Source of the DNA: Microbacterium gubbeenense DSM 15944 | Lineage (GTDB): Bacteria; Actinomycetota; Actinomycetes; Actinomycetales; Microbacteriaceae | Assembly (NCBI RefSeq): GCF_000422745.1 | Contig: NZ_KE383914.1 | Span: 228,686-292,685, forward strand | Length of the DNA stretch: 64,000 nucleotides | Direction: 5' to 3' | Shown: positions 35,281 to 55,400 of the stretch, piece by piece | Layout: each line of letters opens with the position of its first letter | Numbering within the stretch: position 1 is the first letter of the stretch | Position numbers and translations under genes: made by a program | Notes under the pieces: model-generated | What the model saw: only the letters and a program-made list of their open reading frames with translations | What the model was told of the DNA's origin: nothing | The model's database searches: none

Positions 35281-38200
35281 GTGTCGAAACTCTCCGTCCT
35301 CAGCCTGAAGAACCGCGCCCTCATCGCGCTCATCACGATCTGTGTCGCGATCGTCGGCGGGGTGTCGCTGACGAGCCTGAAGCAGGAGCTGATCCCGACG
35401 ATGGAGCTGCCCGCTCTCATCGTTTCGACTACCTACCCCGGCGCCTCTCCCGAGGTCGTCGAGGAGGATGTCTCGACGCCGATCGAGGAAGCGATCCAGG
35501 CCGTTCCCGGTCTCGACTCGACGTCGGCGACGAGTTCGTCGAACGTGTCGATGGTGCAGGCGATGTTCGACTACGGCACCGACATGGCAACGGCTGAGCA
35601 GAAGATGCAGCAGGCGATCAGCCGCATCAGCAGCCAGCTGCCCGAGTCGGTGGATCCGCAGGTCGTGGCGATCTCGCTCGACGACCTGCCCGTGATCCAG
35701 GTTGCCGTATCGGGCTTCGACGACCCCGCGACGGCGAAGGACGACCTCGAGAACATCGTCCTGCCCGAGGTCGAAGACGTCGAGGGTGTGGGATCCGCGT
35801 CGGTGGCCGGCGCGGCCGGACAGCGCATCACGATCACCCCGGTTCCTGGCAACCTGCAGAAGGCTGGTGTCACGCAGCAGGCGATCAGCGATGCGCTCGA
35901 GCAGAACGGCAACCTGTTCCCGGGCGGCGACATCACCGAGGACGGCGAGACGCTGACCGTGCAGACGGGCGTGAAGCTCACCTCGGTGGACGACATCCGC
36001 GAGCTGCCGCTGATCTCGAATGCGCAGCCCGAGGTGAATCCCGAGACGGGCGAGGTCACCCAGCCCGAGACCTTCACGATCGCCGATGTCGCCCAGGTCG
36101 AGGTCGAGGACGACCCCATCGCATCGATCTCGCGCGTGAACGGCGAAGACGCGATCTCGATCTCGGTCACGAAGCTTCCCGACGGCAACACGGTCGACGT
36201 TTCGGAGGGGGTGCTCGCCGCGCTCGATGATGCGCAGCAGCAGCTCTCCGGCGTCGAGTTCACGGTCGTCTTCGACCAGGCGCCGTTCATCACGCAGTCG
36301 ATCGAGACGCTCGCCGTCGAGGGCCTGCTCGGCCTCGTGTTCGCGGTCGTCGTGATCCTCGTGTTCCTCATGTCGATCCGCTCGACGCTCGTGACGGCGA
36401 TCTCGATCCCGACGAGCGTGCTCGTGACATTCGCGAGCATGCAGGCGTTCGGCTATTCGCTGAACATGCTCACACTCGGTGCGCTCACGATCTCGATCGG
36501 TCGCGTCGTCGACGACTCGATCGTCGTCATCGAGAACATCAAGAGACACTACGTTGAGGGATCCGACAAGGGCGATTCGATCCGCCTCGCCGTGCGCGAG
36601 GTCGCGGGCGCCATCACGGCGTCGACCATCACGACGGTCGCGGTGTTCTTGCCGATCGTCTTCGTCGGCGACATGGTCGGCGAGCTGTTCCGGCCGTTCG
36701 CGATGACCGTCACGATCGCGATGCTCGCGTCGCTGCTGGTCGCGCTGACGATCGTTCCGGTGCTCGCGTACTGGTTCATGAAGCCGGGCAAGCCGCTGGT
36801 GACCGAGAGCGGTCAGTCGATCGATCCCGAGCATCCCGATGCGCCGAAGACGCGCCTGCAGAAGGCGTACCAGCCGATCCTCGCGTGGACCCTCAAGCAC
36901 TCCTGGTCGACCCTCGGGATCGCGGTCGTCGTGCTGATCGCCACGATCACTCTCGCCCCGCTCATGAAGGTGAACTTCCTCGGCGATACGGGCCAGAACT
37001 CGCTCACCGTGACGCAGGATCTCGGCGAGACGGCCAGCCTCGAGGCGCAGGACGAGGCGGCGGGCGAGGTCGAGGGCCTGCTCGCCGGCGTCGACGGTGT
37101 CGAGAACGTTCAGGTGACGATCGGATCCGCTTCGGGCGGCGGCATCGCGAGCCTGATGGCCGGCAGCGGCATCACGTTCTCCGTGATGACGGATCCCGAC
37201 GTCGATCAGGGGCAGATCCAGGCCGACCTCGAAGACGCGGTCGCGGGCCTCGAGGACGTCGGCGACATCACCGTGCAGGCCGCGGCCGGCATGGGCATGT
37301 CGAGCGACATCACGGTGAACGTCGAGGGCGCGAACGACGACGATGTTCGCAGTGCCACCGAGGCGCTCATGACCTCGCTCGACGGGCGCGACGGAATCAA
37401 GGCCCCCACGAACAACCTCGAGGCCGAGATGCCGTACATCGCGGTCGACGTCGATCGGCAGAAGGCCGCCGAGGCGGGCCTGAGTGAGGCCGCGGTCGGT
37501 GCCATGGTGAACGGCGCGATGCAGCCGTCCGACTCGGGATCCGTCGAGCTCGACGGTACCTCCACCACCGTCTACATCGCGAGCGATGACCCGCCCGCCA
37601 CGGCGAACGAGCTGCGCGCGATGGAGATCCCGACCGCGGCCGGCGTCGTCGAGCTGCAGGACATCGCGACGGTCGAGCAGAGCTCGAGCCCCGCGTCGAT
37701 CACGACGCAGAACGGCATGCGCACGGCGACGATCACGATCACGCCCGCGAGCGACAACCTCGCCGAGGCCACAGCGTCGGTGCAGGCCGCGGTCGACGAC
37801 ACCGAGCTGCCCGACGGCACGCGGGCGTCGATCGGCGGCGTCGCCGAGGATCAGGCGGCCTCGTTCGAGCAGCTCGGGCTGGCGATGCTCGCCGCGATCC
37901 TCATCATCTACATCGTGATGGTCGCGACCTTCAAGTCGCTGCGGCAGCCGCTGCTGCTGCTCATCTCGGTGCCGTTCGCGGCGACCGGTGCGATCCTGCT
38001 GCAGGTGATCACGGGCGTGCCGCTCGGCGTCGCATCGCTCATCGGTGTGCTCATGCTGATCGGCATCGTCGTGACGAACGCGATCGTGCTCGTCGACCTC
38101 GTGAACCAATACAGATCGCACCACGGCCTGAACGCGCACGACGCGACGATGGCCGGAAGCTCGATGCGTCTGCGCCCGATCCTCATGACGGCGCTCGCGA

Positions 38201-38700
38201 CGATCTTCGCGCTCATCCCGATGGCGCTGGGGATCACGGGCCACAGCGGCTTCATCTCGCAGCCGCTCGCGATCGTCGTGATCGGCGGACTCGTGTCGTC
38301 GACCTTCATGACGCTCATCGTGCTGCCGACGCTGTACAACCTCGTCGAGGGTGCGAAGGAGCGCCGCGAGAAGCGTCGCGGCGGCGCGCCGACGGATCCG
38401 TCCGACGGCCCGGGAGATGCTCAGGACGCCGCGCACGCGCTGCCGGGCGAAGTGACGCCGGATCCTGCGCCGGAGTCGGCGCGCACAACAGGATCCACGG
38501 CGGTCGTCGCTCACGAGGCGCACCAGGTGGTGCCTGTGAGGTACGACGCCGACCCGACGACGTCGGCGCAGACGGTGGTCGACGTGCACCAGCCGGGCGC
38601 GCCGAAGGGATCCGCCCCGATCGTGACGGTGCGGGTGCAGATGCCCGAGCAGTCGCCGGGCATCCCCACCGCCCCGCCCCTGCGCCGCCGCCGAGGCTGA
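35281..38700 (+). CDS. RND efflux permease, HAE1/AcrB type
   Basis: Proton-coupled RND transporter of 1139 residues with two homologous halves. TM1 is near 12-30 (ALIALITICVAIVGGVSL), with a large extracytoplasmic porter loop (about 31-335). TM2-6 lie at about 340-560, and motif D in TM4 is GRVVDDSIVVIENI with the two adjacent Asp used for proton relay. TM7 is near 545, followed by a second loop and TM8-12 to about 1015. A Pro/Asp-rich cytoplasmic tail of some 120 residues ends RRRRG. No membrane-fusion adaptor or outer-membrane gene is adjacent, as expected for a monoderm. GTG start. Its last codons form one copy of a 21-bp direct repeat. Confidence 0.93.
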   Translation: MSKLSVLSLKNRALIALITICVAIVGGVSLTSLKQELIPTMELPALIVSTTYPGASPEVVEEDVSTPIEEAIQAVPGLDSTSATSSSNVSMVQAMFDYGTDMATAEQKMQQAISRISSQLPESVDPQVVAISLDDLPVIQVAVSGFDDPATAKDDLENIVLPEVEDVEGVGSASVAGAAGQRITITPVPGNLQKAGVTQQAISDALEQNGNLFPGGDITEDGETLTVQTGVKLTSVDDIRELPLISNAQPEVNPETGEVTQPETFTIADVAQVEVEDDPIASISRVNGEDAISISVTKLPDGNTVDVSEGVLAALDDAQQQLSGVEFTVVFDQAPFITQSIETLAVEGLLGLVFAVVVILVFLMSIRSTLVTAISIPTSVLVTFASMQAFGYSLNMLTLGALTISIGRVVDDSIVVIENIKRHYVEGSDKGDSIRLAVREVAGAITASTITTVAVFLPIVFVGDMVGELFRPFAMTVTIAMLASLLVALTIVPVLAYWFMKPGKPLVTESGQSIDPEHPDAPKTRLQKAYQPILAWTLKHSWSTLGIAVVVLIATITLAPLMKVNFLGDTGQNSLTVTQDLGETASLEAQDEAAGEVEGLLAGVDGVENVQVTIGSASGGGIASLMAGSGITFSVMTDPDVDQGQIQADLEDAVAGLEDVGDITVQAAAGMGMSSDITVNVEGANDDDVRSATEALMTSLDGRDGIKAPTNNLEAEMPYIAVDVDRQKAAEAGLSEAAVGAMVNGAMQPSDSGSVELDGTSTTVYIASDDPPATANELRAMEIPTAAGVVELQDIATVEQSSSPASITTQNGMRTATITITPASDNLAEATASVQAAVDDTELPDGTRASIGGVAEDQAASFEQLGLAMLAAILIIYIVMVATFKSLRQPLLLLISVPFAATGAILLQVITGVPLGVASLIGVLMLIGIVVTNAIVLVDLVNQYRSHHGLNAHDATMAGSSMRLRPILMTALATIFALIPMALGITGHSGFISQPLAIVVIGGLVSSTFMTLIVLPTLYNLVEGAKERREKRRGGAPTDPSDGPGDAQDAAHALPGEVTPDPAPESARTTGSTAVVAHEAHQVVPVRYDADPTTSAQTVVDVHQPGAPKGSAPIVTVRVQMPEQSPGIPTAPPLRRRRG

Positions 38701-38708
38701 CCCGTTCG
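38688..38708 (+). repeat. 21-bp direct repeat, left copy
   Basis: Starts CCGCCGAGGCTGACC and ends CGTTCG; identical at all 21 positions to 40116-40136. This copy includes the last codons and stop of the RND gene. Confidence 0.9.
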
Positions 38709-38770
38709 GTCGGAGTCGAGCCCTGAACTATGCGCCAAGCGCTCAACTCCCGCAAGCCCTGCCGCTCGAG

Positions 38771-38833
38771 CGGAGAAGAGCCAGAACTGCGGAGCACATC
38801 ACGGACTTTCTCCGCGGTTGTGGCTCGTTTCCG
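38771..38833. repeat. 63-bp palindromic repeat, copy P1
   Basis: 24-base arms (38771-38794 and 38810-38833) separated by a 15-base centre. The right arm contains CTCCGCGGTTGTGGCTCG. Arms match at 20 of 24 positions. Confidence 0.88.
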
Positions 38834-38900
38834 TCGGCGTGGTATTGCGCTGCGCGGGGCTCGCCCCCTCCTCGAGCTGCGCATCGCTGATCCGCGCGAA

Positions 38901-38963
38901 CGGAGATGAGCCACCGTCACGGAGCAAATGTCGGAGCACCTCCGCAGTTGTGGCTCATTTCCG
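38901..38963. repeat. 63-bp palindromic repeat, copy P2
   Basis: Arms 38901-38924 and 38940-38963, centre 15 bases. The right arm contains CTCCGCAGTTGTGGCTCA. Arms match at 18 of 24 positions, with the mismatches clustered in the left arm. Confidence 0.88.
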
Positions 38964-39085
38964 CGTGGACATCCATACGCGACCGCGGGGTCAGCGCGCT
39001 CACAATCGGCAGATCTGCGAAGTTATCTGACGTTCGGCGGACTCTGTCCGACGAACGGATCCGGGTTTCGGCATCGTCGCCTGGC

Positions 39086-39910
39086 ATGGATATCGAATCG
39101 AGGGTCCGCCAGGCGGGCGGGGTGATGTTGACGACGAAGCTAGTCGACAGCGGGGTGGCGACCGCGCGGATCAAACGGGCGGTCGGTGCCGGCCGGCTGG
39201 TGCGACCTAGCCGTGGTTGGGTCGCGCTGCCCAGCGCGGATCCGGTCCTCATCCGGGCGGCGCAGTCGCGCGTCATACTCACCTGCGTGACCGCGGCAGC
39301 ACGGCGAGGCCTGTGGGATGTCGGCGACGACACGTTCCACGTCGCCGTCTCTCCGCATGCTCGGCCGGCGGACGGGATCCGTGCGCGGATCCACTGGTGT
39401 GAGCCGATGATCCTTCGCGCGCCCGGTACGCTCGTCGATTCGGTGCCGAATCTGCTCTCGATCGTCGCGAACTGCCAGCCCTATGAGCAGGCGCTGACGA
39501 TCTGGGAGTCAGCGATCCGTCGCAAGCAGATCACACCCGACACGATGCGCACGCTTCCGCTTTCGGCCCGGAGCCTGCGGATCCTCGATGATGCTCGGCC
39601 CTTCGCAGACGAGGGAACCGAGTCGATCCTGTTTGTCCGGCTGACGTGGCTCGGGCTGCCGATGAGGCGGCAGATCATGGTTCTTGGCCATCGGGTCGAC
39701 CTTCTGATCGGCGACCGACTCGTGATCCAGGTCGACGGCGGCCACCACGTCGACCAGCAGCGAACGAGCGACAACAAGCACGATGCGCGGTTGCGTCTCG
39801 CTGGTTACCACACGATCCGCGTGTCGTACTGGCAACTGATGCACGAGTGGCATGTGGTGCAGGATCTGATCCTCGGTGCCATCGCGCGCGGCCTCCACCT
39901 CGCGGCGTGA
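39086..39910 (+). CDS. DUF559 endonuclease-fold protein with AbiEi-like N-terminus
   Basis: 274-residue protein. The N-terminal winged-helix-like part (residues about 5-60: GGVMLTTKLVDSGVATARIKRAVGAGRLVR, then GWVAL) resembles the AbiEi antitoxin N-terminal domain. A middle region covers 70-170. The C-terminal DUF559/Vsr-like nuclease-fold domain (about 180-274) contains GTESILFVRLTWLGLP, HRVDLLIGDRLVIQVDGGHH and GYHTIRVSYWQLMHEW. The acidic positions before and within VDLLIGD and VDG could form a PD-(D/E)XK-type site, with Gln in place of the usual Glu of the E-V-D motif. ATG 39086 opens the HTH. It is enclosed by palindromic repeats P1-P4 and 21-bp direct repeats. Function is unproven. Confidence 0.8.
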   Translation: MDIESRVRQAGGVMLTTKLVDSGVATARIKRAVGAGRLVRPSRGWVALPSADPVLIRAAQSRVILTCVTAAARRGLWDVGDDTFHVAVSPHARPADGIRARIHWCEPMILRAPGTLVDSVPNLLSIVANCQPYEQALTIWESAIRRKQITPDTMRTLPLSARSLRILDDARPFADEGTESILFVRLTWLGLPMRRQIMVLGHRVDLLIGDRLVIQVDGGHHVDQQRTSDNKHDARLRLAGYHTIRVSYWQLMHEWHVVQDLILGAIARGLHLAA

Positions 39911-39924
39911 GCGAGCCATTCGGG

Positions 39925-39987
39925 AGGAGACGAGCTTCAACTGCGGAGCAGATCGGCGATAGCCTCCGCAGATATGGCTCAGCTCCG
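39925..39987. repeat. 63-bp palindromic repeat, copy P3
   Basis: Arms 39925-39948 (contains CAACTGCGGAG) and 39964-39987 (contains CTCCGCAGATATGGCTCA), centre 15 bases. It begins 14 nt after the DUF559 stop. Confidence 0.88.
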
Positions 39988-40032
39988 CGCGAAGCGCTAC
40001 GGGTCGGGATCGCCAGCGTCTGCCGATTCGAG

Positions 40033-40095
40033 CGGAAACGAGCCTCAACTGCGGAGCGAAACCTCGATCTCTTCCGCAGCTGTGGCTCGTCTCCG
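40033..40095. repeat. 63-bp palindromic repeat, copy P4
   Basis: Arms 40033-40056 (CGGAAACGAGCC then TCAACTGCGGAG) and 40072-40095 (contains TTCCGCAGCTGTGGCTCG), centre 15 bases. Confidence 0.88.
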
Positions 40096-40115
40096 ACGGG
40101 GCGGTCCGGTGAAGC

Positions 40116-40136
40116 CCGCCGAGGCTGACCCGTTCG
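40116..40136 (+). repeat. 21-bp direct repeat, right copy
   Basis: Identical to 38688-38708. It lies 20 nt after P4 and closes the DUF559 block. Confidence 0.9.
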
Positions 40137-40283
40137 CGGAGAAATCTTCGACCATACCCGGACTTCTCCCAGGGCGAACATGTAACGTAGAAAGGTCGGC
40201 TGAGGGATACCGCGTCGTACACGCGGGTGTTTGCGTGTCCTGTCATGGCCGCATAACACCTATGGAAGGTGCGTGTATCAAGC

Positions 40284-42392
40284 ATGCCCAAAAACAAGAT
40301 GCCCTCCGGCGGACGCCCCGCCAAGAACTTCGACCCCAAGTACGCGTCGAAGGGCGGATCCCGTAAGCCGCGTTGGAACCAGGACGATCGCGACCAGCGC
40401 CAGGGCGCTCCCCGCGAAGGCGGCTTCCGCCGCGATGACCGCGGTGGCGACAGCCGTGGCGGCCGCACGTTCAACCGCGACGACCGCGGTGGCCGTTCCT
40501 TCGACCGCGACAACCGCGGTGACCGCAGCTTCAACCGTGACGACCGTGGCGGACGCTCGTTCGACCGCGACAACCGCGGAAGCTTCAACCGCGATGACCG
40601 CGGCGGCCGCACGTTCAACCGCGATGACCGCGGTGCCCGCTCGTTCGACCGTGACAATCGCGGTGGCGACAACCGTGGCGGCTTCAACCGCGACAACCGC
40701 GGTGCCCGTTCGTTCGACCGCGATAACCGCGGTGGCGACAACCGTGGTGGCTTCAGCCGTGACGACCGTGGTGGCCGGACGTTCAACCGCGATGACCGTG
40801 GCGGACGTTCCTTCGACCGTGACAACCGTGGCGGCTTCAACCGTAACGACCGCGGCGGCCGTTCGTTCGACCGTGACAACCGCGGTGGCGACAATCGTGG
40901 TGGCGACAACCGTGGCGGCTTCAACCGTGACGACCGCGCCCCCCGCTCGTTCGACCGAGGCGACCGTGGTGGCTTCAACCGCGACAACCGTGGTGGCTTC
41001 AACCGCGACGACCGCGGCGGACGTTCCTTCGACCGAGGCGACCGCGCACCCCGCCGCTTCGACGACAAGCGTGACGACCGCCGCGACGACAAGCGCAGCG
41101 ACAGTCCCCGCACGCAGAACGCCTGGCAGGATCGCCGCGAGGCGCCGCAGCGCACCGCGAAGCAGGAAGCGCACATCGACGTCGTGCACGAGCGCCTCAC
41201 GGCCGACTCGGTAGCCGCCGAGCAGGTCGAGGGCCAGTCGTTCAGCGACCTGGGTCTCGGCGACAACATCTGCCGCGCGCTCCTCGAGCTCGGTGCGCCG
41301 AGCCCGTTCCCGATCCAGGCCGCGACGATCGGTCCGATCCTCGCCGGCAAGGACGTGCTCGGCCGCGGCCGCACCGGATCCGGCAAGACGATCGCCTTCG
41401 GCGCTCCGCTGGTCGAGGCGATCCTGCGCACCCGTACGGGCGGCGAGCGCACGTACGGTCGCAGCCCCCAGGCGCTCATCGTCGCCCCGACGCGCGAGCT
41501 CGCACTGCAGATCGACCGCACGGTGCAGCCGATCGCCCGCAGCGTCGGCCTGTTCACCACGCAGATCTACGGCGGCGTGCCCCAGGGCAAGCAGGTCGGA
41601 GCGCTCCGCAAGGGCGTCGACATCATCATCGGCACGCCGGGCCGCATCCAGGACCTCGAGCGTCAGGGCAAGCTCGACCTGAGCCAGATCCAGATCGCGG
41701 TGCTCGACGAGGCCGACCACATGTGCGACTTGGGCTTCCTCGAGCCGGTGCAGGAGATCCTGCGCATGACGAAGAAGGACGGCCAGAAGCTGCTCTTCAG
41801 CGCCACGCTCGACCGCGAGGTCTCGGCGCTCGTCGACGAGTTCCTCAAGGACCCGCAGGTCTACGAGGTCGCCGGTGAGGACCAGGACTCGGGCACGATC
41901 GACCACCAGGTCCTCGTGATCGACCAGCGCACCAAGCGCGACGTCATCGAGCAGATCGCAGGCCGCGAGGGCCGCACGATCATCTTCAGCCGCACGCGTT
42001 CGTTCGCGGATGAGCTGGTCGAGCAGCTCGAGGACGCCAACATCAGCGCGATCGCGCTGCACGGCGACCTCAACCAGGCCAAGCGCACGCGCAACATCGA
42101 GCGGTTCTCGAAGGGCCGCGCGAGCGTGCTCGTCGCGACCGACGTCGCTGCCCGAGGGATCCACGTCGACGACGTCGATCTTGTCGTGCAGGCCGACGCG
42201 CCGGACGAGTACAAGACGTACATGCACCGCTCGGGCCGTACGGGCCGCGCGGGCAACGAGGGACGCGTCATCACGCTGATCCCGCGCAACCGCCGCCGTC
42301 GCATGAGCGAGCTGCTCAGCCGCGCCGAGATCGACGCGCCGTTCCGCGACGCGCAGCCCGGTGACGCGCTGATCGACGAGCTCGCGGGTTAA
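40284..42392 (+). CDS. DEAD-box RNA helicase with N-terminal RGG/RDN repeat
   Basis: 702-residue ATP-dependent RNA helicase. Residues about 50-265 are a low-complexity array of units such as FNRDDRGGRSFDRDNRGG, then an acidic/basic DDKRDDRRDDKR linker. The helicase core follows: Q motif SFSDLGLGDNICRALLELG with PFPIQAATI, motif I GRGRTGSGKT, PTRELALQ, TPGRI, DEAD (VLDEADHM), SAT, and HRSGRTGRAG. The C-terminal extension is short. The repeat-rich RNA-binding tail is N-terminal, whereas most bacterial RGG helicases carry it at the C-terminus. ATG 40284 follows a leader of about 150 nt after the direct repeat. It may act in ribosome assembly or RNA turnover, possibly in condensates. Confidence 0.93.
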   Translation: MPKNKMPSGGRPAKNFDPKYASKGGSRKPRWNQDDRDQRQGAPREGGFRRDDRGGDSRGGRTFNRDDRGGRSFDRDNRGDRSFNRDDRGGRSFDRDNRGSFNRDDRGGRTFNRDDRGARSFDRDNRGGDNRGGFNRDNRGARSFDRDNRGGDNRGGFSRDDRGGRTFNRDDRGGRSFDRDNRGGFNRNDRGGRSFDRDNRGGDNRGGDNRGGFNRDDRAPRSFDRGDRGGFNRDNRGGFNRDDRGGRSFDRGDRAPRRFDDKRDDRRDDKRSDSPRTQNAWQDRREAPQRTAKQEAHIDVVHERLTADSVAAEQVEGQSFSDLGLGDNICRALLELGAPSPFPIQAATIGPILAGKDVLGRGRTGSGKTIAFGAPLVEAILRTRTGGERTYGRSPQALIVAPTRELALQIDRTVQPIARSVGLFTTQIYGGVPQGKQVGALRKGVDIIIGTPGRIQDLERQGKLDLSQIQIAVLDEADHMCDLGFLEPVQEILRMTKKDGQKLLFSATLDREVSALVDEFLKDPQVYEVAGEDQDSGTIDHQVLVIDQRTKRDVIEQIAGREGRTIIFSRTRSFADELVEQLEDANISAIALHGDLNQAKRTRNIERFSKGRASVLVATDVAARGIHVDDVDLVVQADAPDEYKTYMHRSGRTGRAGNEGRVITLIPRNRRRRMSELLSRAEIDAPFRDAQPGDALIDELAG

Positions 42393-52445: not shown

Positions 52446-55400
52446 ATGCGTGCTGAAAAGCAGGATCAGCCCTCGCGCGATAGAGCGCGGCGGCTGACCA
52501 AGAAGACACTCGCAGCGGGAGGTGTCGTCACCACTCTCGCGGTCGTTGGATCGTTCGCGGGCATCGGGGCGGCGACCGCTGACGAGTAACCGACGACCGC
52601 CGATTCGGCGGCTCACGCTCACCTGCTGTGGCTCGAGGGCCTTGGCCTTGATGTGGCCGGTGTGGGTACGTCCGCCAGTGAGTTCCCCGGAACGCCTGGA
52701 CCGATCGACGATGGCATCGACCTCGAACTTCTCGGTTCGCTCGGTCTCGAGATCCCGGAGCTCGATCTGCCGCTGATCAAGCCCGACGCTGACAGCGCCG
52801 GCCTTCTGCACCTCGGCGCGCTCGGCGCCGGCGGCAGCCGTTCCTCGTCGACCTCGGAGACGGAATCGCTGGCCGCATCCCGTCTGCTCTCAGAGAGTGG
52901 CGGGCTCGATCTCAGCGCGTACGAAGGTGACGTTGCGGACCCCGCCTATGTCGACCTGACCTCGACCATCGAACAGCTTTTGGGTGATGGTGCACTCGAC
53001 ACGCTTCTCAGCGAGGCGCGTATCGAGCTCGGCGCTGTCGGTTCCGAGATCACCAAGAACGGCACGGAGGTGAACTCCCAGTATCGGATCGCGGATCTCG
53101 GTGTGGCTCTCACGAGCCCGTTGCTCGGCGATGTGACGAGCCTCGTCGACGACGTCGTCGGCGGTGTCGTCGATCCTCTCAACGACGCGATCGGGCCCGA
53201 TGGCTCGCTCAGCACGATCGTTAACAACCTCGTCGCGGGTCTGAATCTCAACGTGCCTGTTGTGGGCGGCCTGACCACGACCCTTGAGACCCCGCTGTCG
53301 CTCGACGTCAGCTCGCTCACCGATTCGGTGCGCGAGGGCCTGCTGCAGGAGCCCCTCGATAACTCGACGGCTGAGCAGCCCGCAACCGTCTCGATCGACC
53401 TCAACAACGGGTCGGTCTCGGCGGACCTCGGTGGCCTGCTACTGGCCTCGAACCCGGACTTCACTGATCTGAACGATCTTCCGGCGAACACGGACGTGCT
53501 CTCGGACAGTGTCGTGAACGCACTGACGCAGGGCGTTCTCGAAGCGCTCACCGGTACCGGGCCGAACTCCCTCACGAGCAAGGCCGTCGCCTTGGTCGAG
53601 GACGGTCTCTACGGCATCGGGGTCGGCCTCGAGCTCAACCTCAACGTCTCGCTCCTCACAATTCCGGCCGTGGACACGACGCTCTCGTTGCTCGACGAGG
53701 AGGGCGAGCCCGCAACGCTCGGCGGCATCCTCGGCGTCGACGGATACACTCCCGCTGGTCTTGAGATCGCCGATGAAGGCGTTCTCGGTGGCCTGCTCAC
53801 TCCCGTGCTCGGCGTCGTGACGACCGCTCTTGACGGCCTGACGAGCGGCCTCGGCACCATCGTCGAGGGCGCAGCAGGTGAGGGCGGGATCCTCGACACG
53901 CTCCAGCCCACGATTAACGGCGTTCTGAACCCGATCGTGACCGCGCTTGTGGGCGATGACGGCGCGATTAAGGGTCTTCTCGACGGCGCCGCCACGATCA
54001 CGATCAACGAGCAGCCGCAGGAACTGGCCACGCCTGAGCCCGGCGACCTCGGAGACGAGAGTCTTTCGGTTCGCGCGCTCAGTGTTTCGGTGCTTCCGGG
54101 CCTTCTCAATAATCCCGTGAAGCTCGAGCTCGCATCGTCGACGGTCAAGGCGCTGGACGAGGCGCCCGTGTACGACACGGCCATCGAGGTCACGCCGGGC
54201 ACGATCGAGCAGGGCGAAACGACGACGATCACCGGTACCGGCTTCGCGCCGAACGAGACCGTCGACGTCGTACTCGAGGGCGAGAGCATCGGTACGGCTA
54301 CGACGAACGAGAGCGGCGAGTTCACGCTCGACTACACCGCGCCGGAAGACTCCGGGACCGGTGCCTTCGATGTGGTTGCCACGGGTGAGGTCTCGCAGAC
54401 CCCGGCCGAGGGAATTCTCACGATCGAGGCGGGTAACGCCGGGGCGGACCCGGACACGGACACGAACGGTGATGTGGACGTGAACGGTACCCCGGACACG
54501 GACACGAACGGTGATGCGGACGTGAACGGTACCCCGGACACGAACGCTAACGCAGACGTGAACGCGGACGCTGATGTGAACGGTGACGTGAACACCAACG
54601 CCTCGTCTTCGGCTTCGGCCTCGGCGAACGCGGACGACGACAGCAACGCATCGGCTCAGGCCGCTGCGCAGGCTGCGGCGACCGCCGACGCTGACGCGAC
54701 GGCTTCGGCCGCTGCGGATGCTGACGCGACGGCTGCTGCTCAGTCGGCTGCCACGGCAGACGCATCGAGCGATGCATCGGCGGATGTGTCGTCTGACGTG
54801 AACGCTTCGGCTCAGGCCGCGGCTCAGGCTGCCGCGAATGCGGACGCTTCGTCGGCGTCGAACGCTGAGGCTTCGGCCGCATCGGACGCGAGCGCGAACG
54901 CCGCGGCTGCGTCGCAGGCCGCGTCCAACGCGGACTCGTCGTCGGATGCCTCTTCGGAGGCAGCCGCTTCGTCGGACAGCGACGCGTCGGCTTTGGCTAG
55001 CGCATCGTCGGATGACAACGCCGCGTCGGACAGCGACTCGAACTCTGCTTCGGACAGTGAGTCGGCCTCGAACGCGAACGCGTCGAGTGCCTCTGACGGC
55101 CAGCAGATCTCGATGGAGCTCGAGAACGACCGCCTGCAGGTCGGCGAGACGCAGGTGGCCCACGGCCACGGCTTCCAGCCGGGCGAGTCGGTCACGGCAA
55201 CGCAGTACTCCACCCCGTACGACATCGGCACCTCGGTCGCCGATGACAACGGCGACGTGACGTTCACGTGGTCCGTTCCGAACGGCACGGAGGACGGCAA
55301 CCACGTGGTCGAGCTCACGGGCGCGACCTCGGGTAGCGTTGACGCCACCTTCGAGGTGTACTCCACCGGTGGCGGCGGGCTGTCGCCGACAGGCGGTGAC

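Follow-up and report, generated by a model that had tools for sequence, protein, structure and literature searches.

Dispersed palindromes paired with DUF559 nuclease-fold genes in Microbacterium, a probable counterpart of the REP/RAYT system

What kind of element places four long palindromes around a single DUF559 gene, two on each side? The question is raised by a window of 64,000 nucleotides (the whole stretch of DNA that was analysed) from Microbacterium gubbeenense DSM 15944. Related genomes indicate that such palindromes accompany most of the sampled DUF559 genes of the genus, that they are specific to the protein whose gene they flank and that, in the three families traced, they are dispersed; all three findings are drawn from comparison alone. 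Palindrome family and dedicated nuclease together probably form a functional counterpart, built from unrelated parts, of the repetitive extragenic palindromes (REPs) and their REP-associated tyrosine transposases (RAYTs). The locus comprises the following features, with the palindromes placed by in-register alignment, DNA folding and a covariance model:

38688..38708, plus strand: left copy of a 21-bp direct repeat, containing the last codons and the stop of the upstream transporter gene
38766..38838, plus strand: palindrome copy 1 (38766-38843 over the 78 nt in register)
38896..38968, plus strand: palindrome copy 2 (38896-38973 in register)
39086..39910, plus strand: DUF559 gene (274 aa), with a predicted AbiEi-type DNA-binding region and a predicted Vsr-like nuclease domain
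39920..39992, plus strand: palindrome copy 3 (39920-39997 in register), beginning 9 bp after the DUF559 stop codon
40028..40100, plus strand: palindrome copy 4 (40028-40105 in register)
40116..40136, plus strand: right copy of the 21-bp direct repeat, present in one (M. gubbeenense) of the four species that share the site

The palindromes, of about 65 bp each, had been described by a first-pass annotation as lying two on either side of one DUF559 gene within perfect 21-bp direct repeats. Both the palindromes (in register, by alignment) and the repeats, external to all four, were found again. A degenerate half-arm that it had suspected at 38711-38734 was not recovered, since the covariance model places no copy there (E ≤ 0.001). 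Over 78 nt in register, copies 2-4 are 64-74% identical to copy 1. In DNA folding, copies 1, 2 and 4 reach z values of -4.4 to -5.1, with none of 200 shuffles equally stable, whereas copy 3 folds less stably (z -2.3; 5 of 200 shuffles equally stable). In an alignment of 31 copies out of three genomes, one per place and a subset of the copies found, pairing holds in 85.8% of the cells of 24 arm pairs. Compensatory change is seen in 14 of these 24 pairs, altered on both sides, and none of 500 shuffles was as good.

Flanking palindromes at DUF559 genes are the rule in Microbacterium, beyond this one locus. DUF559 is present in all 59 sampled genomes of the genus (among them Ca. M. stercoravium, M. 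suaedae and M. nanhaiense). When the 700 bp upstream of each gene were aligned to the 700 bp downstream, with a score of 21 as the cut, a flanking repeat pair was found at 59 of 76 distinct loci from Microbacterium and near relatives (86 minus 10 redundant), against 8 of 984 sliding control positions taken from the same neighbourhoods and of the same composition. The same score is reached by 16 of 20 loci from four genomes that were picked blind to repeats. A second set, mostly Microbacterium with a few loci from Leucobacter, Frigoribacterium or others, gave a pair at 42 of 65 new loci (80 minus 13 already seen and 2 with short flanks); its cross-pair control contains orthologous pairs, and 5% of it reaches 21. 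The loci are mostly the top-scoring matches per search and no random sample, and the counts are not independent, coming from related genomes, one per species. Because the score misses diverged pairs, both fractions are likely to be lower bounds. M. gubbeenense itself carries three DUF559 genes: the second (L002) is flanked by a different repeat (score 81), and the third (L003), with related inverted motifs by eye and an automated score of 17.5, below the cut, was excluded from the count.

The loci have in common the architecture of their units, the sequences of which are wholly different between most loci. The median unit is 78 bp long. Upstream, the distance from the end of the nearest unit to the start codon has a median of 112 bp; downstream, the nearest unit starts a median of 18 bp past the stop codon. 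Among the 52 of 59 units that could be tested by length (55-130 bp), 47 are palindromic beyond shuffles. Autocorrelation peaks at 19 bp (z 13.2 in the 49 of 59 units of 60-130 bp; z 11.9 in 36 units of the second set). The arms therefore hold two direct half-units, 19 bp apart, and the typical palindrome consists of four half-sites in the order >> <<.

In several paralogues, the stretch from the upstream palindrome to the start codon contains, by eye, an element like GGGGTCAACGCGCTCACA, at about 38988-39005 in the window, 838-855 in L003 and 5694-5711 in L067. It may be a promoter or regulator site that these genes have in common.

Three palindrome families were traced genome-wide by covariance model: the window family, the ACAGG family and the L101 family. 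All match counts include both strands, with about two matches per place. For the window family, the three genomes searched that carry the orthologous gene returned 34, 26 and 83 matches (E ≤ 0.5). The other 17 returned 0-9 each; among them, G043, with 6 matches, has a 68% homologue elsewhere. Among the matches listed for its own genome, there are at least 17 distinct places (E ≤ 1e-3), at least 13 of them remote from the locus, and some matches in other genomes flank another DUF559 gene (L102 in G034, L054 in G180). The ACAGG family allows a sharper comparison, since some relatives carry its gene in the serC-dtxR interval and others lack it there. Each of 11 genomes with the gene there holds 14-43 matches, whereas the 12 genomes without it hold 0, 0, 0, 0, 0, 1, 1, 1, 4, 4, 6 and 16 (Mann-Whitney p = 3.6e-5, with gene status scored at serC-dtxR only). 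Excluded from this comparison were G087, in which the gene is truncated (12 matches), and three outgroups (0, 0 and 0 matches). In the L101 family, each of the two genomes that have the ortholog yielded 18 matches. One genome, whose matches also flank a related DUF559 gene, L112, yielded 29; of the remainder, two yielded 2 and 1, and 13 yielded none. By these counts the palindromes are dispersed in all three families, mainly in genomes holding the cognate gene. Regarding the choice between repeats clustered at DUF559 loci and repeats dispersed over the genome, which had been posed at the outset, both descriptions apply. Remote copies, which by the first-pass annotation would refute its own proposal if they had no association with DUF559 genes, do exist, but chiefly in genomes with the cognate gene.

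In the two families examined, the ACAGG and the window family, the dispersed copies are intergenic, mostly at the 3' ends of genes. Outside coding-like open reading frames lie 38 of 39 ACAGG copies (40 minus L246, below score; random 175/780) and 31 of 34 window-family copies (random 96/400). The neighbouring genes of the intergenic copies are convergent in 17, tandem in 19 and divergent in 2 cases for ACAGG (n = 38), and convergent in 25, tandem in 5 and divergent in 1 for the window family (n = 31). A tblastn search with five queries detected no DUF559 gene at any of 60 dispersed-copy loci that were retrieved. Beside a dispersed ACAGG unit in G049 and G101 (L230:1200-1650 and L237:1080-1720) lies another short palindrome array, GGTCGTTGAGCG / CGCTCAACGACC, longer in G101 than in G049. 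One further intergenic site holds an ACAGG unit in G065 (L247:1480-1960) and another unit in G028 (L251), which looks, by eye, like the palindrome of another DUF559 gene of G028, L019; one gap may thus be used by different palindrome families.

The cognate relation was examined over all pairs among 92 loci, by comparing unit match with protein identity. Units match in 69 of 82 locus pairs at 70% protein identity or more (45/57, 17/18 and 7/7 in three bands), in 20 of 56 at 65-70%, in 5 of 108 at 60-65% and in 21 of 3940 below 60%. Each DUF559 protein appears to have its own palindrome, protein and palindrome diverging together. In pairs of 58-80% identity, residues 1-165 are 40.5% and 56.9% identical where the palindromes differ, against 57.4% and 71.5% where they do not; the gap is smaller in the nuclease domain (69.3 against 78.2). 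The contrast between protein parts is modest, since unit match has rank correlations of 0.55, 0.62 and 0.47 with the three parts against 0.60 with the whole protein, and the pairs are non-independent. The pattern fits recognition of the palindrome by the AbiEi part.

Six of the seven groups with matching palindromes share neighbour genes and are therefore orthologous and vertically inherited; the seventh (L061 and L034, with 60.6% protein identity) has no shared neighbours within the flank of about 1 kb. In the one family tested, ACAGG, copies at one locus are 78.6% identical within species (25 pairs), compared with 65.3% for the same position between species (58 pairs), and concerted evolution is concluded from this excess.

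The window protein scores above the cut-off for the DUF559 profile and under it for AbiEi_4, and matches the PADLOC AbiEi profile at 4e-6. The NCBIfam search assigned it to no family, and the PHROGs search returned a single match at E 0.095. A structure model computed from a 53-sequence alignment (mean predicted local distance difference test score, pLDDT, of 91) predicts two parts:

39086..39598, plus strand: residues 1-171, predicted AbiEi antitoxin fold (6y8q, Z 10.4, 4.3 Å, 171 residues aligned)
39608..39895, plus strand: residues 175-270, predicted Vsr/I-Bth0305I-like PD-(D/E)XK nuclease domain, from the structure model

The modelled nuclease domain resembles the homing endonuclease I-Bth0305I (3r3p; Z 13.3, 2.2 Å, 93 aligned) and Vsr (1vsr; Z 10.4, 2.0 Å, 94 aligned). 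E179, D205, D217, R226 and D229, among which we take the catalytic residues to be, going by the Vsr fold, are invariant across 31 aligned proteins.

From these data we infer binding, nicking and enzyme-driven spread. The AbiEi-like part would read the half-units of about 19 bp, four per palindrome, and the Vsr-like domain would nick or cut at them, whether in duplex DNA, in a cruciform or in a single-strand hairpin. Repair there would copy the palindrome into other sites and convert neighbouring copies, giving rise to arrays, dispersal and homogenisation; where the gene is lost, orphan palindromes would stay and then decay. The chances are about even that this amounts to a second, independently evolved REP solution, in which an AbiEi-Vsr fusion spreads and homogenises its own four-half-site palindromes via nicking and repair.

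The likeness to REP/REPIN sequences and RAYTs, as these are described in excerpts of PMC3116915, PMC8266576 and PMC3733652, extends to several points. The enzyme gene is flanked by its own palindromes (here at 59/76 and 42/65 loci); the palindromes are dispersed, extragenic and often arrayed, with the inverted doublet as a hairpin; several systems with cognate repeats are found per genome; and the enzyme is mostly vertical at species level. On the other hand, the enzyme here is predicted to be AbiEi plus Vsr-like PD-(D/E)XK, whereas RAYT is an HUH enzyme, and the units, of about 78 bp with two 19-bp half-units per arm, are present in far fewer copies. RAYTs cleave single-stranded REPs and transfer the strand, and a GTAG tag marks the repeat end in one large REP superfamily. 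The HUH enzyme that defines REP/RAYT (Y1 transposase, PF01797) was found in 0 of 19 genomes at E ≤ 0.001; the system is therefore no member, but appears to work like one. Because this defining enzyme is missing there, the system would be categorically new, of a kind that is familiar by analogy. In the open-access literature, to which the search was confined (no subscription papers or preprints), no paper came up whose listing links DUF559, AbiEi or Vsr proteins to such palindromes. VsrA, a Caulobacter DUF559 protein, is tied to an unlinked methyltransferase, and palindromes go unmentioned in the excerpt of PMC12907096 consulted.

Several observations weigh against a REP-like system. Copies occupy some 7 to 41 places per genome (matches halved), far below REP numbers; REPs are said in the excerpt of PMC3116915 to occur hundreds of times. 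In G028 the gene is missing from serC-dtxR; this genome nevertheless holds the 16 ACAGG matches noted above, the best at 77.7 bits, and may have lost the gene recently, leaving orphan palindromes. Copies of G049 and G101 are 92.7% alike at the same site and 85.1% at different sites, so that dispersal is older than the split of the two. The only candidate for clean insertion of a dispersed palindrome that was followed (L232 against G052) turned out to be a larger deletion. No pair is detected by flank score at 17 of 76 and 23 of 65 loci, and outside the genus the pattern is seen at a minority, 6 of 28 loci (30 minus 2 with short flanks); one of these six, L185, belongs to the same family, and its unit starts in a simple repeat. 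DUF559 genes with palindrome-like flanking repeats were observed in other families of the class (L171 and L188), and the range of the system may be wider than the genus. Gene loss seems to be ongoing, judging from the truncated DUF559 gene L133 in G087 and the stop-containing L316.

Among the alternatives to the REP-like system, the one that survives best, although it is unlikely, is an AbiEi-type autorepressor, with the palindromes as operators, the dispersed copies as its regulon and the nuclease domain secondary. It draws on the AbiEi fold of the model and on the binding by AbiEi proteins of inverted repeats in their own promoters; the inverted repeats bound by AbiEi and Rv2827c are 23 bp long, and a single promoter holds four of them (PMC7319586, in excerpt). 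These antitoxins of type IV toxin-antitoxin systems share with the window protein the fold predicted for residues 1-171. The upstream unit, at a median of 112 bp from the start codon, would suit an operator, but the closer unit is the one after the stop codon. Moreover, divergent promoters are avoided by the dispersed copies (2 of 38 and 1 of 31), though 19 and 5 do lie between tandem genes, and the putative active-site residues are conserved. The window protein further differs from the antitoxins in its nuclease fusion and in repeats that lie on both sides and are dispersed, and no AbiEii nucleotidyltransferase toxin gene adjoins the gene at the window locus. Regarding Vsr and I-Bth0305I, the modelled likeness concerns the nuclease fold and its PD-(D/E)XK character, whereas the window protein is linked to palindromes and has no cytosine methyltransferase among its neighbouring genes, which are the following:

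35281..38700, plus strand: upstream neighbour, resistance-nodulation-division (RND) transporter of the AcrB family
40269..42392, plus strand: downstream neighbour, DEAD-box helicase

The block of palindromes and gene lies in the interval between these two. A slightly weaker, likewise improbable alternative makes it a mobile element, which transposes as a whole or homes into solo palindromes and leaves a long direct duplication. The 21-bp duplication of the window would be such a mark, and a homing endonuclease is among the nearest solved folds. The repeat scores 22, above all 3306 cross pairs (maximum 21), and is the sole such case among 58 loci; L002, L049 and L119 are near chance (p 0.024), and target duplication as a general rule was rejected. 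Apart from the direct-repeat pair, all repeated 21-mers on the plus strand of the window fall in two clusters, 40458-41009, an arginine/glycine-rich repeat region of the helicase gene, and 54449-54542, a 42-bp repeat.

The same RND-helicase interval holds the gene in four species, M. gubbeenense, Ca. M. stercoravium, M. nanhaiense and M. sorbitolivorans, so the gene is old and vertical there. In the three other species, what matches best between the RND end and the far side lies outside the RND gene and consists partly of half-units. Since the 21-bp repeat occurs in one of the four only, it is unlikely to be the surviving target duplication of the original insertion. Being perfect and carrying the RND stop, the repeat is unlikely to be a mere half-unit; a recent local duplication fits better. 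Of the original proposal of a nuclease-associated repeat or insertion unit, the repeat system holds up, in parallel with REP/RAYT, and insertion of the whole block is not supported, the site being common to four species.

Elsewhere, a duplication of about 48 bp surrounds the gene in G065 (L127, aligned separately) and is single-copy in its relative G028, which has no gene there and whose flanks are 90-92% identical. Gain or loss with duplication is therefore possible, and the duplication may be the mark of gain or the substrate of precise loss; the orphan palindromes of G028 would speak for loss. Mobility would also account for the presence of the gene at serC-dtxR in some relatives and its absence in others, and for the matching palindromes of L061 and L034, without common neighbours. 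Yet the six other matching-palindrome groups are vertical, and a flanking duplication above every control pair is confined to one of 58 loci, plus G065. Relatives on plasmids are three distant Tsukamurella proteins (28-32% identity); phage records contain no relative, and of 60 pattern matches in viral contigs none is a relative. Longer inserts without a DUF559 match occupy serC-dtxR in G010 and G045 (L137 and L140), and the interval may therefore be a general insertion hot spot.

Very improbable is a RAYT or other transposase that moves the palindromes with DUF559 genes as passengers: organisation and context are REP-like, but PF01797 is missing from all 19 genomes (a search that covered this transposase type), and the palindrome tracks the DUF559 protein and, in three families, the presence of its gene. 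Least probable of all is that the palindromes at gene ends are intrinsic terminators of the ordinary kind or serve as processing hairpins, for despite the 3'-end location and the hairpins, the sequence is locus-specific and bound up with one protein, copies lie upstream of the gene too, and most genomes without the cognate gene have few or none.

REP-like palindromes are common in bacteria, and the dedicated enzymes named in the literature examined are RAYT-type (HUH, tyrosine) transposases. According to the excerpt of PMC3733652, one large class, the CGTC REPs, is apparently without a dedicated transposase, and untagged REP-like families in several bacteria are still unplaced. A REP-like role for the DUF559 proteins would add a second enzyme class for dispersed palindromes, making their origin testable in ordinary environmental bacteria, and would supply a role for DUF559/AbiEi-nuclease genes; the many protein-palindrome pairs would constitute a natural data set on DNA specificity. 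If true, Microbacterium would harbour a class of bacterial intragenomic parasite, or a domesticated repeat system, outside HUH chemistry and with several separate specificities per genome.

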